This document shows, in pieces, positions 34,714 to 52,006 of a stretch of DNA of 64,000 nucleotides (its first letter is position 1; every line of letters starts with the position of its first letter). A program made the translations under genes and the position numbers. Where the stretch lies: the NCBI RefSeq assembly GCF_900089605.1, contig NZ_LT594324.1, positions 62,001-126,000 on the forward strand, given 5' to 3'. The notes under the pieces are model-generated. The model was not told the DNA's origin. It did no database searches and was given only the letters and a program-made list of their open reading frames with translations. The DNA is from Micromonospora narathiwatensis. Lineage in GTDB: Bacteria; Actinomycetota; Actinomycetes; Mycobacteriales; Micromonosporaceae.

Positions 34714-36075
34714 ATGAAGACGCTACGGCCGATCATGATTCTGTCGGCGCTCATGGTGCTCATTTTCGGCACGGCGCAGCCGGCGGCCGCCGCGACGATC
34801 ACCATCACCTCGGGTGATCCCACCTCCCCGGTGACCGCGTACGAGCCGTATCCGACGCACACGTTCACGGCGTCGGGTGGCACGGAGCCGTACACCGCCT
34901 CGCTGCGGTCGGGCTCGTTGCCGGTGGGCATGGCGCTGTCGTCGATCTCGCGCAACCTCTCGGGTACGCCGACCACTCCGGGCACCTACACCTTCGGCGT
35001 GCGGATCACCGACAAGGACGGGTCCTACGCCGACCAGGACGTGACCGTCGAGGTGGTCGCGCCGACGATCACCATCACCTCGGGTGATCCCACCTCCCCG
35101 GTGACCGCGTACGAGCCGTATCCGACGCACACGTTCACGGCGTCGGGTGGCACGGAGCCGTACACCGCCTCGCTGCGGTCGGGCTCGTTGCCGGTGGGCA
35201 TGGCGCTGTCGTCGCTCTCGCGCAACCTCTCGGGTACGCCGACCACTCCGGGCACCTACACCTTCGGCGTGCGGATCACCGACGCGAACGGCTTCTACGC
35301 CGAGCAGGAGGTGACCGTCGAGGTGGTGGCACCCACGATCACCATCACCTCGGGCGCCCCCACCTCGCCCTGGTTCACCGGGCAGCCGTACCCGACGCAC
35401 ACGTTCACGGCCTCCGGTGGCACCGGGCCGCACACGCTGTCGCTGCGGTCGGGTTCGTTGCCGGTGGGGATGGCGTTGTCGTCGATCTCGGGGAAGCTCT
35501 CGGGTACGCCGACCAGCACGGGCACCTACACCTTCGGCATCCGGATGACCGACGCGAACGGCTTCTACGCCGAGCAGAACGTCACGGTCGTCATCGCCGA
35601 CCCGGCCACCACCATCACGTCGGGCGACCCGCCGCTGGGCACGGTCGGCGAGGCGTACTCGTTCCGGTTCACCGCCGCCGGTGACTCCGACATCAGGTTC
35701 AGCCTGGCCGCCGGTGACCTGCCCGACGGGCTCACCCTCGCCCCCGACGGCGTGCTCGGCGGCACTCCCGAGGCCGTTGGCAGCTTCCGCTTCACGGTCA
35801 AGGCGACCGGCACGGCGACGAGTGACACGGCCGAGGTGACCGTCACCATCGCCGCGGCGCCCTCGCCGACGCCGTCGCCGACCTCGACGCCGACCTCGCC
35901 GGCGCCGGGCACGCCGGATCCGGCCTCGCCGACGACCACACCCGGCAGCGGCCTTCCGGTCACCGGATCGAGCACGGCCACCATGCTGCTGCTGGGCGTC
36001 GCGGCGATCGCCGTCGGTGGGATGATCCTCGTTGTGCTCCGCGTCCGCCGCCAGCGCTTCACGGCGGGTGGGTGA
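34714..36075 (+). CDS. Sortase-anchored Ig-like repeat surface protein
   Basis: 453 aa. A signal peptide (residues 1-27: MKTLRPIMILSALMVLIFG, cleavage after AAA) leads to three 90-residue putative Ig domains plus a fourth divergent one, each with the TSGDPTSP... LSGTPTTPGTYTFGVRITD pattern of He_PIG/Ig-like cell-surface repeats. A Pro/Ser/Thr linker follows, then LPVTG, a hydrophobic span and RVRRQRF, a canonical sortase sorting signal. It is presumably wall-anchored and adhesive. AT-rich upstream DNA (34600-34713) probably holds its own promoter. No sortase gene is in the window. Confidence 0.9.
   Translation: MKTLRPIMILSALMVLIFGTAQPAAAATITITSGDPTSPVTAYEPYPTHTFTASGGTEPYTASLRSGSLPVGMALSSISRNLSGTPTTPGTYTFGVRITDKDGSYADQDVTVEVVAPTITITSGDPTSPVTAYEPYPTHTFTASGGTEPYTASLRSGSLPVGMALSSLSRNLSGTPTTPGTYTFGVRITDANGFYAEQEVTVEVVAPTITITSGAPTSPWFTGQPYPTHTFTASGGTGPHTLSLRSGSLPVGMALSSISGKLSGTPTSTGTYTFGIRMTDANGFYAEQNVTVVIADPATTITSGDPPLGTVGEAYSFRFTAAGDSDIRFSLAAGDLPDGLTLAPDGVLGGTPEAVGSFRFTVKATGTATSDTAEVTVTIAAAPSPTPSPTSTPTSPAPGTPDPASPTTTPGSGLPVTGSSTATMLLLGVAAIAVGGMILVVLRVRRQRFTAGG
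34795..35604 (+). repeat. 270-bp tandem repeat, three copies
   Basis: Copies begin at 34795, 35065 and 35335, exactly 270 bases apart. Copies 1 and 2 are nearly identical over their whole length, which implies recent duplication or gene conversion; copy 3 is clearly more diverged. Each encodes one 90-residue Ig-like domain. Confidence 0.9.
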
Positions 36076-48593: not shown

Positions 48594-49877
48594 ATGAAAC
48601 GGTCCTGGACGCACTGGGCCCGGGCGGTCACCGTGGGTGCCGTCAGCCTGGTCATGGTCGCGGCATGCAGCGGCAAGAGCACCACCGGCGGCTCGGATTC
48701 GGCCGACGGGCAGATCACTCTGAAGATCAACTTCTGGGGCGACTTCGGCCTCCAGGACCTCAAGGCCAAGTACGAGGCCGAGCACAAGAACGTCAAGATC
48801 CAACTGAACTCGGGCGAGTACAACGCCCAGCACGAGGACCTGCAGAAGAAGCTGGTCGCCGGCTCCGGTGCCGCGGACATCGCCGCGATCGACGAGGGCT
48901 TCATGGTCCAGTTCCGCAGCCAGTCCGACAAGTTCGTCAACCTGCTGGACAAGGGCGCCGGCTCGTACGAGAGCAAGTACCTGCCCTGGAAGTGGAAGCA
49001 GTCGCTGTCGGCCGACGGCAAGACCCAGATCGGTCTCGGCACCGACGTCGGCGGCCTGGCCATGTGCTACCGGACCGACCTGTTCCAGGCCGCCGGCCTG
49101 CCCACCGACCGGGACCAGGTCTCCGCCCTCTGGCCCACCTGGGACAAGTTCATCGAGGTCGGTCAGCAGTACACCGCCAAGACCAAGAAGAAGTTCGTCG
49201 ACTCGGCCACCAACATGTTCAACCCGATCCTCGGCCAGCAGCCGGTCGGCTTCTACAACGAGCAGGACCAGCTCCAGATGGACGGCGGCCCGAAGGTCGC
49301 CTTCGACTACACCGTCAAGGGGATCGAGGCCGGCCTGTCGGCCAATCTCGCCAGCTTCCAGGCCGACTGGGACAAGGGCTTCACCAGTGGCTCCTTCGCC
49401 GTGCTCGCCTGTCCGGCGTGGATGCTCGGTCACATCAAGGACACCGCGCCCGGCACGCAGGGCAAGTGGGACATCGCCGCGGTGCCCGGCGGCGGCGGCA
49501 ACTGGGGTGGCTCCTTCCTGACCATCCCCAAGCAGGGCAAGCACGTCGACGAGGCGTACAAGCTGCTGGAGTGGCTGGTCGCGCCCGAGCAGCAGATCGA
49601 GATCTTCAAGAAGGTCGGCAACCTGCCCTCGCAGCCGGCGCTCTACACCGACCCGGCGATCGCCGACTTCAAGAACCCGTTCTTCAACAACGCGCCGGTC
49701 GGGCAGATCTTCCCGAAGATGGCCCAGGGCCTGACCCCGCAGTACCTCGGCAAGAAGAACGGCCCGACCCGGGTCGCGGTCGAGAACGTCATCAACCGGG
49801 TGCAGAACAAGAGCCTGAAGCCGGACGCCGCCTGGGGCGAGGCGGTGAAGGAGGCCGAGAAGGCCGCCAACTCCTGA
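48594..49877 (+). CDS. Sugar ABC transporter solute-binding lipoprotein (CebE-like)
   Basis: 427 aa. Lipoprotein signal peptide MKRSWTHWARAVTV with lipobox MVAAC, cysteine near residue 25. The mature protein is a Family 1 extracellular sugar-binding protein: ITLKINFWGDFGLQDLKAKYE, TDVGGLAMCYRTDLFQ, and the C-terminal NPFFNNAPVGQIF segment. The adjacent beta-mannosidase suggests a beta-linked gluco- or manno-oligosaccharide ligand. GGAGG lies 5 bases before the ATG. Expression should be high; a hairpin follows the gene. Confidence 0.93.
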   Translation: MKRSWTHWARAVTVGAVSLVMVAACSGKSTTGGSDSADGQITLKINFWGDFGLQDLKAKYEAEHKNVKIQLNSGEYNAQHEDLQKKLVAGSGAADIAAIDEGFMVQFRSQSDKFVNLLDKGAGSYESKYLPWKWKQSLSADGKTQIGLGTDVGGLAMCYRTDLFQAAGLPTDRDQVSALWPTWDKFIEVGQQYTAKTKKKFVDSATNMFNPILGQQPVGFYNEQDQLQMDGGPKVAFDYTVKGIEAGLSANLASFQADWDKGFTSGSFAVLACPAWMLGHIKDTAPGTQGKWDIAAVPGGGGNWGGSFLTIPKQGKHVDEAYKLLEWLVAPEQQIEIFKKVGNLPSQPALYTDPAIADFKNPFFNNAPVGQIFPKMAQGLTPQYLGKKNGPTRVAVENVINRVQNKSLKPDAAWGEAVKEAEKAANS

Positions 49878-49955: not shown

Positions 49956-50963
49956 ATGTCCACCACCCGTGCCGCGCCGTCGAGCCGGCGACCCGCGCCG
50001 GAGCGCGGCCGCCCCGGGGCCGACGACCGGCGGATGACCTGGCGCGACCGGCTGTACCGCTTCGACATGCGTTACATGCCGTACCTGATGATCGCGCCGT
50101 TCTTCCTGCTCTTCATCGTCTTCGGGCTTTTCCCGCTGGTCTTCAACGGCGTGGTCGCGCTGCGCAACTACCGGCTCGACGACCCGACCCTGCCGTACTG
50201 GGCCGGCGGCGACAACTTCAGCAGACTCGTCGGCGACGAGGACTTCTGGAACGCCCTCTACAACACCTTCGGCATCTTCCTGCTCTCCTCCGTGCCGCAG
50301 CTGCTGCTCGCGCTGGTGGTCGCCGCGCTGCTCAACCGCAAGCTGCGGGCGCAGACCTGGTGGCGGGTCGGCGTGCTGCTCCCGTACGTCACCCCGATCG
50401 TCGCCTCGACCATGGTGTTCAGCGTCTTCTTCTCCCGCGACTTCGGCATGGCCAACTGGGTGCTCGGCCTGTTCGGCCTCGGTGGCCCGGACGACCCGAT
50501 CGACTGGCGGGCCGACAAGCTGCACGCCTGGATCGCCGTCGCCACGATGGTCAACTGGAAGTGGATCGGCTACAACGCCCTGCTCTACCTGGCCGCGATG
50601 CAGTCCATCCCGCGTGACGTCTACGAGGCGGCCGCGATCGACGGCGCCGGCCCGTGGAAGCAGCTATGGCGGATCACGGTGCCGATGATCCAGCCGGTCG
50701 TGCTGTTCACGGTCATCCTCTCCACCATCGGCGGCCTCCAGCTCTTCACCGAGCCGATGCTGTTCGACCTGAACGCGCAGGCCGCGACCGGCGGGCCGAA
50801 CGGCGAGTGGCAGACCATCGCCCAGCTCGTCTACAAGGTCGGCTGGAAGGACCTCAACCTCGGCTACGCCGCGGCGATGTCCTGGGCCCTCTTCCTGATC
50901 ATCCTGATCGTCGCCGGCATCAACTACCTGGTGACGAACCGACTCTCCGGAGGCCGCCGGTGA
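49956..50963 (+). CDS. Sugar ABC transporter permease (CebF-like)
   Basis: 335 aa, six predicted membrane spans after a basic N-terminal stretch. The EAA loop is VYEAAAIDGAGPWKQLWRITVP, which docks on the ATPase. It imports the ligand of the upstream binding protein. Its stop TGA (50961-50963) overlaps a GTG that opens the 59-nt repeat unit, and a GGAGG lies just before that GTG inside its own last codons. Named by analogy; the operon lacks an ATPase gene. Confidence 0.93.
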   Translation: MSTTRAAPSSRRPAPERGRPGADDRRMTWRDRLYRFDMRYMPYLMIAPFFLLFIVFGLFPLVFNGVVALRNYRLDDPTLPYWAGGDNFSRLVGDEDFWNALYNTFGIFLLSSVPQLLLALVVAALLNRKLRAQTWWRVGVLLPYVTPIVASTMVFSVFFSRDFGMANWVLGLFGLGGPDDPIDWRADKLHAWIAVATMVNWKWIGYNALLYLAAMQSIPRDVYEAAAIDGAGPWKQLWRITVPMIQPVVLFTVILSTIGGLQLFTEPMLFDLNAQAATGGPNGEWQTIAQLVYKVGWKDLNLGYAAAMSWALFLIILIVAGINYLVTNRLSGGRR

Positions 50964-51136
50964 GCGCGAGGAACGCAGCGGAGCGGAGTCCCGCAGTCGC
51001 GAGCGAAAGAAGGTACCGGTGAGCGCGAGGAACGCAGCGGAGCGGAGTCCCGCAGTCGCGAGCGAAAGAAGGTACCGGTGAGCGCGAGGAACGCAGCGGA
51101 GCGGAGTCCCGCAGTCGCGAGCGAAAGAAGGTACCG
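50960..51136 (+). repeat. 59-bp tandem repeat, three copies, each a 20-codon overlapping mini-ORF
   Basis: Three perfect 59-bp units start at 50960, 51019 and 51078; the permease gene starts at 51137 in the same phase. Each unit opens with GTGAGCGCGAG and closes with GAAAGAAGGTACCG, a ribosome-binding site. Because 59 is 20 codons minus one base, each unit's GTG begins a 20-codon reading frame whose TGA overlaps the next GTG (GTGA): 50961, 51020, 51079, 51138. The chain runs from the stop of the first permease to the start of the second. The first 11 bases of each unit copy the first 11 bases of the downstream permease gene. Coding of the mini-peptides is not shown; they may be only a translational relay. 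Confidence 0.9.
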
Positions 51137-52006
51137 GTGAGCGCGAGAATCACACCTCGGCTGATGGCCCGGGCCCCGCAGGACACCCAGGCCGGGGTCT
51201 GGACGTACCTGCTGCTCTCGCTGACCCTGCTGTTCGCCGCGTTCCCGTTGTACTGGATGTTCGTCATCGCGACCAGCAACGACGAGGCGCTGGCCAAGCT
51301 GCCCCCGGCGGTCATCCCCGGCGACCGGTTCCTGACCAACGTCGACGAGGTCTTCTCCCTCCAGGACGTCTACTTCGCCGCCTCGCTGGTCAACAGCGTC
51401 ATCGTCTCGACCGTGGTGGCCGCCTCGGTGCTCTTCTTCTGCTCGCTGGCCGGGTTCGCCTTCGCGAAGCTCCGGTTCAAGGGCAGCAACGCGCTGATGC
51501 TCTTCGTGGTGCTCACCCTGACCGTGCCCAACCAGCTCGGCATCGTGGCGCTGTACATCGTGATGGGCAAGCTCGGCTGGAACGGCACCCTGCTCGCGGT
51601 CATCGCCCCCGGCCTGGTCACCGCGTTCGGCGTGTTCTACATGCGGCAGTTCATCGTCAACAGCGTGCCCGACGAGCTGGTCGAGTCGGCCCGGGTGGAC
51701 GGCGCCACCACCATGCGGGTGTACGCCACCATCGTGCTGCCGGCGATCCGTCCCGCCCTGGCGGTGCTCGGCCTGCTCACCTTCGTGGCCACCTGGAACG
51801 ACTTCCAGTGGCCGTTGATCACACTGAGCGGCACCGACTACCCGACCTCGATGGTGGCGGTGTCCGACCTGGCCAGCGGCAACTACGTGATCTACCGGCG
51901 GGTGCTGGCCGGGGCGTTCATCGCCACCGTCCCGCTGCTGGTGATGCTGTTCATCGGCGGACGTCAGATCGTCCGCGGAATCATGGAAGGCGCGGTGAAG
52001 TCGTGA
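51137..52006 (+). CDS. Sugar ABC transporter permease (CebG-like)
   Basis: 289 aa, six predicted spans. EAA loop: ELVESARVDGATTMRVYATIVLPAI. The GTG at 51137 (VSARITPRL) is the end of the 59-bp repeat series and has AAGAAGG 6 bases upstream. Translation probably depends on reinitiation from the preceding mini-ORFs. Its stop overlaps the beta-mannosidase start (GTGA), so the mannosidase is coupled too. Confidence 0.93.
   Translation: MSARITPRLMARAPQDTQAGVWTYLLLSLTLLFAAFPLYWMFVIATSNDEALAKLPPAVIPGDRFLTNVDEVFSLQDVYFAASLVNSVIVSTVVAASVLFFCSLAGFAFAKLRFKGSNALMLFVVLTLTVPNQLGIVALYIVMGKLGWNGTLLAVIAPGLVTAFGVFYMRQFIVNSVPDELVESARVDGATTMRVYATIVLPAIRPALAVLGLLTFVATWNDFQWPLITLSGTDYPTSMVAVSDLASGNYVIYRRVLAGAFIATVPLLVMLFIGGRQIVRGIMEGAVKS

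Follow-up and report, generated by a model that had tools for sequence, protein, structure and literature searches.

A tandem array between two sugar permease genes

The window, which is the whole stretch of 64,000 nucleotides analysed here from Micromonospora narathiwatensis (contig NZ_LT594324.1, positions 62,001 to 126,000 of the forward strand), contains an ABC sugar operon in which two permease genes are joined by an array of short repeats. The features at this locus, numbered from the first position of the window, are as follows.

LacI-type regulator, divergent to the ABC sugar operon
48594-49877, binding protein of the ABC sugar operon
49956-50963, plus strand, permease 1, ABC sugar permease, upstream gene (PF00528, E = 2.1e-19)
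50960-51018, plus strand, unit 1, 59 bp, 20-amino-acid small frame from GTG to TGA
51019-51077, plus strand, unit 2, 59 bp, identical to unit 1
51078-51136, plus strand, unit 3, 59 bp, identical to units 1 and 2
51137-51147, plus strand, GTGAGCGCGAG, opening 11 bases of permease 2, identical to the opening 11 bases of the unit
51137-52006, plus strand, permease 2, ABC sugar permease, downstream gene (PF00528, E = 9.4e-16)
from 52003, family 2 glycoside hydrolase, same operon

The three 59-bp units at the permease junction (50960-51136) are identical and in tandem (TRF period 59, 100% match, score 382). The stop codon of permease 1 (TGA, 50961-50963) sits within the GTGA of unit 1, each unit holds a 20-codon frame that closes on a TGA overlapping the GTG of the next unit, and the TGA of unit 3 overlaps the GTG of permease 2 through the same 4-base GTGA. 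The perfect repetition of the unit and the gapless chain from stop to start, both pointed out in a preliminary description of this DNA, are thus borne out. Right after unit 3, the 11-base match GTGAGCGCGAG forms the start of permease 2 and is possibly the leftover of a fourth unit; orthologous junctions that lack the element, such as L009, have a different permease 2 start. No Rfam family matched positions 50500-51600 at E <= 1. Elsewhere in the window (34793-35590), a 270-bp repeat occurs in three tandem copies that are 90% alike.

Dispersal of the unit

An 18-base core of the unit was found at 14 places in the M. narathiwatensis genome with up to 2 mismatches, and a reversed control was found at none. 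A model built on sequence only from 11 units gave 103 matches in this genome at E <= 1 (150 candidates scored), of which 87 scored 23 bits or more and made up 51 sites. The middle segments of these copies diverge strongly from one another, as judged from 95 of the 103 matches, the other 8 being weak ones that were left out. Counting the M. narathiwatensis genome each time, units occurred in all 81 genomes sampled from the genus (68 candidates scored per genome) and in 38 of 101 genomes of the bacterial family, representing 17 of 42 genera, with 6 of the 38 belonging to the same genus (54 candidates per genome). They also occurred in 51 of 298 genomes of the order, all 51 from the same bacterial family, and in 2 of 296 genomes of the phylum, both from the same genus (18 candidates per genome in either sample). 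The copy numbers are lower bounds because a limited number of candidates was scored per genome, with stricter filters in the wider samples. Since the matches are confined to one bacterial family, the unit is regarded as a repeat of that family; outside it the model had no match in the order (298) and phylum (296) samples, an absence that is weakly supported because only 18 candidates per genome were scored. The nearest named relatives belong to Micromonospora.

The unit is therefore not unique to the window. The perfect identity of the three units would fit an assembly artefact, or an ordinary gene start that was duplicated in tandem at this one locus, but the dispersed copies and the occurrence of units in every sampled genome of the genus leave such an origin a negligible probability, even though the exact copy number at the permease junction could be a matter of assembly.

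Site structure was analyzed in a pool of three complete genomes, which are mutually related, so that the sites are partly dependent. The pool comprised 239 units at 138 sites, with 74 single, 33 double, 26 triple, 4 fourfold, and 1 fivefold arrays.

Placement at start codons and reading frames

All 138 sites of the three-genome pool were usable, and gene starts were assigned by a third-position G+C rule instead of from the annotation. The first unit is headed by GTGA at 113 sites, by ATGA at 9, and by neither at 16; the last group, lacking a start codon at the unit head, was excluded, leaving 122 sites, and both ends were defined at 104 of the 138. At 92 of 122 sites the upstream gene terminates on the TGA of the unit itself, and at 90 of 104 the downstream gene begins with NTGA. 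Under a stricter rule, the stop feature was found at 90, the start feature at 105, and both at 79 of the 122 element sites, compared with 34, 159, and 14 of 436 GTGAG positions that served as controls within the same DNA. Ribosome binding site (RBS) tetramers precede 74 of 92 units and 97 of 117 downstream starts, and a strict set of RBS motifs precedes 46 of 92 and 51 of 117, respectively (raw counts, orthologues uncollapsed). Host junctions identified with Pfam include argJ-argB, pyrC-carA, and a second ABC transporter. The exceptions to this placement are the 16 sites at which the unit head lacks a start codon and one copy in the M. narathiwatensis genome inside pyrC (L147, 890582-890629), which forms an in-frame insertion of 54 bases, or 18 codons, within a dihydroorotase-like gene. 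This internal copy is present in 14 of 30 loci (the M. narathiwatensis locus included) and absent in 16, and one of the copies is shortened by 15 bases.

The distance to the downstream start is 59 bases at 58 of the 104 sites, 60 at 12, 56 at 11, and 62 at 10. The modulo-3 classes of these offsets are distributed 83:18:3 (three genomes, orthologues uncollapsed), so that at 101 of 104 sites the small frame is able either to close on an overlapping TGA (83) or to run on in frame (18); with offset 59 removed and orthologues collapsed, the distribution among 32 sites is 19:11:2 (p = 0.001). Among 203 units that have a start codon and are followed by another start (three genomes, orthologues uncollapsed), 127 end with the 4-base overlap, 57 continue in frame into the next start, and 9 end in TGATG; the remainder comprise 6 in another frame, 3 with a stop 3 to 12 bases before the next start, and 1 with an early stop. 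In the units that continue in frame, the next protein would be lengthened instead of being reached by a relay.

That the small frame is nearly always open, with 1 early stop in 203 units, could suggest a family of functional 20-amino-acid peptide genes copied around the genome. However, openness would also follow because ribosomes must stay coupled, the middle segments differ greatly among copies, and the 57 units in frame with the next start are not closed peptide genes, which together make a peptide family very improbable.

Presence and absence at orthologous junctions

In the best 80 of 424 orthologous permease junction loci, the element is absent from 75 and present, as one or two units, in 5 (L014, L019, L021, L026, and L036); one further locus, L063, shows looser motif matches, yet its junction has no unit. 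On an unrooted permease 2 tree of 40 rows, the filled locus L014 and the empty locus L016 pair as sisters (support 100/84), and at least five changes of presence, each a gain or a loss, are required. Two further locus searches covered 41 genomes each, of which 30 loci from each, the M. narathiwatensis locus included, were examined. At the pyrC-carA junction, 22 of 30 loci carry one to three units, some of them decayed, and 8 carry none. The element at site 4490690 recurs in 4 of 29 relatives, much decayed in two of these, and that at site 4491777 in 0 of 29. Copy number thus differs among relatives as the preliminary description had asked to see compared, from 0 to 3 units at pyrC-carA and from 0 to 2 in the 80 permease loci versus 3 in M. 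narathiwatensis. Its suggestion of a tiny element adapted to start codons is upheld by the dispersal, the variable copy number, and the absence from 75 of 80 permease junctions. The observations that favour mobility are the presence and absence of the element at orthologous junctions, the L014/L016 pair, and the changes on the tree; no movement event was seen.

These comparisons also bear on a special role in permease translation, which had been proposed from the array itself. The units could form a translational relay, maintained by selection, that adjusts the proportion of the two permeases, or of other operon partners, with copy number setting the downstream output, and both the variation in copy number (1 to 5 over the 138 sites, 0 to 3 at pyrC-carA) and the mostly retained coupling geometry are consistent with this. 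A relay of this kind is nevertheless improbable: the element occupies only 5 of the best 80 orthologous permease junctions, sister species differ in carrying it, its presence changes at least five times on the 40-row tree, and its hosts are unrelated operons, including argJ-argB and pyrC-carA, so that a role specific to the permeases is not sustained.

At the same permease start codon in another species (L038), a 26-base insert, ATGAGCGAGCGAAGCGAGGTGGCGCG, is found that is absent in the sister locus L037.

Duplication of bases before the start codon

Were the target duplicated on insertion, the sequence preceding the first unit would be expected to match that preceding the downstream start. 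The suffix shared by the unit flank and the pre-start bases was 2.25 in the three genomes, compared with 0.53 +- 0.10 after shuffling, and 0 of 5,000 shuffles reached the observed value. For non-redundant sites it was 1.97 versus 0.51 (0 of 10,000 shuffles), and for 38 single-copy sites 1.21 versus 0.46 (2 of 10,000). The excess is clear from -1 to -5, weak to -9, and absent from -10 on. The clearest case is site 4491777, where the empty relative L201 has GTGGAGGTGTCGCAATGAGCC and where, in the M. narathiwatensis genome, GAGGTGTCGCA both precedes the first unit and closes each of the three units. Units headed by ATGA precede ATG genes at 8 of 9 sites versus 24 of 96 for GTGA units (p = 2.6e-4, orthologues uncollapsed), and it seems that the start codon is copied too on insertion.

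The duplication is not evident at every site. The -1 base differs between flank and tail at 42 of 104 sites, and therefore the duplication there is short, eroded, or absent. Only CCG is common to flank and tail at the permease junction of M. narathiwatensis, and in the sister pair L014/L016 the insertion is visible and a clean duplication is not. At G008_562800 and G008_3881500, the flank that looks duplicated is also similar to an older unit's end, so that some duplications may be remnants of lost units. The expectation of duplicated flanks at other copies thus holds in aggregate and not site by site. The proposal that the start region was duplicated on insertion was correct as to duplication, which involves mainly the bases before the start codon and not the first 11 of the gene; the identity of those 11 bases with the unit, although present in the window, extends to at least 11 bases at only 4 of 117 sites in the three genomes. 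Downstream gene starts match the first 9 or more bases of the unit, the first base not counted, at 11 of the 117 sites, and such starts are possibly truncated units that have turned into new protein N termini. Unit-like gene starts include window positions 51137-51147 and site 285151 of the M. narathiwatensis genome.

Unit ends and candidate moving enzymes

REP/REPIN sequences are small, non-autonomous, dispersed repeats with weakly palindromic ends and are associated with RAYT (Y1) transposases, and miniature elements of the MITE type are non-autonomous and show target duplication. The unit resembles the former in its size, non-autonomy, dispersal, and weakly complementary ends (CGCGA/TCGCG), and the latter in its non-autonomy and in a target duplication found in aggregate and in one case against an empty orthologue. 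It differs from REP/REPIN in lying at start codons instead of in extragenic space, and from MITEs in that its end repeats are short and imperfect and its target is a translation start. Variant units at pyrC-carA (L169-L198) have ends that are complementary in other letters (GATCCG/CGGATC, and GATTCG/CGGATC with a G-T pair; in L190, GAACCGGG/CCCGGTTC), hinting at a conserved stem. A regular-expression count of arm covariation over all loci was noisy, consisting mostly of canonical ends plus background, and had a compensatory look only at pyrC-carA, so it is given little weight. RNA structure was considered and rejected, as the window unit (z = -0.06) and three others (range for all four, -0.06 to -1.12) folded no better than shuffles.

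That a Y1 (RAYT) transposase mobilizes the unit in the manner of REP/REPIN-type repeats, or that the unit is a MITE belonging to a resident insertion sequence, is unlikely, though less so than the alternatives considered above. The complementary ends and the target duplication speak for such an origin; against it, the Y1 transposase family PF01797, the sole family searched, had 0 matches in the M. narathiwatensis genome at E <= 0.001, and as a single strand the window unit folds no better than its shuffled versions. The PF01797 profile matched in 5 of 14 control genomes. This alternative concerns the moving enzyme only and could hold together with the reading preferred below.

Relation to MIRU and a proposed mechanism

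The closest counterparts are the mycobacterial interspersed repetitive units (MIRU), carried by tuberculosis bacteria among others, which are described as short, apparently mobile repeats at start codons with an internal frame coupled to the gene at -4 spacing (PMC12548453), as in senX3-regX3, where three 77-bp MIRU lie in tandem between operon genes (PMC4213456). As far as these descriptions extend, both repeats have an internal frame that overlaps the gene start by 4 nucleotides (127 of 203 units here, with an upstream NTGA stop at 92 of 122 sites), and both are dispersed, singly or in tandem, between operon genes (1 to 5 units at 138 sites here). They differ in length, at about 59 bp versus 77 or 53 bp for MIRU. 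The Micromonospora unit differs further in that its matches lie in one bacterial family only (limited candidates scored per genome), that duplication of pre-start bases has been measured for it, and that two unlike cores share the target in the genus. Judged by description, the unit has the design of MIRU, so that the earlier statement that no named family of this design is known fails as to design (PMC12548453). The restriction of matches in the order sample (298 genomes) to one bacterial family lowers the likelihood of kinship with MIRU and does not exclude it. The unit is classed as MIRU-like in design and, as far as compared, as a new family by sequence. No title or abstract found in searches of the open-access literature describes an element of this kind in Micromonospora, a text search of PMC4633059 returned no MIRU terms, and the available portions of the MIRU papers cited here contain no account of how MIRU move.

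The array between the permease genes is best explained, with a probability of roughly 0.85, as three copies of a new MIRU-like, short, non-autonomous mobile start-codon repeat that is a near-silent passenger. The element is proposed to insert at coupled start codons, those of the form NTGA in which one gene's stop overlaps the following gene's start, and to duplicate a few, up to about 12, of the bases just before the start codon, which can reach into the RBS. The small frame and the displaced gene are then each provided with a start and an upstream signal, as the statistics and the one site with an empty relative show, and the upstream gene still has a stop, since the element brings an identical TGA. 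After terminating there, ribosomes probably start again on the GTG of the element, translate about 20 codons, and finish at the TGA overlapping the next start, one relay step per unit; at a minority of sites the small frame continues directly into the gene, whose protein would be lengthened. Arrays of 1 to 5 units would then grow or contract, probably through slippage or unequal recombination, and movement is presumed to involve transposition in trans. The element would thus behave like MIRU, as a near-silent passenger and not as a dedicated permease regulator.

MIRU typing underlies tuberculosis epidemiology, and the unit arrays could serve as variable-number markers for the genus. A MIRU-like, high-copy, polymorphic family in Micromonospora, with its empty sites, its duplicated target bases, and an unlike second family that shares these targets, makes movement and coupling directly testable outside pathogens. 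Some annotated gene starts and N termini in this group may be element derived, which should be considered in annotation.

A second element at start codons

The second element (type B, the 59-bp unit being type A) is represented in the M. narathiwatensis genome by 11 copies (L229-L239) that have GAGCGAATCATC about 16 bases after ATGA (GTGA in L235). A tentative and rather doubtful extension is that the start codons of coupled genes are a recognized landing site for a class of tiny actinobacterial elements. Unlike cores (type A, type B with GAGCGAATCATC, and MIRU) would share the target and duplicate the initiation region, and what the moving machinery recognizes would therefore be the initiation region itself, perhaps in the form of RNA or of a DNA signature of NTGA plus RBS. 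Exactly at the 4491777 junction, where the M. narathiwatensis genome has three type A units, the relative L223 carries two tandem copies of type B. By eye, most type B copies are followed, at a distance of up to about 100 bases, by a further start-like NTGA.
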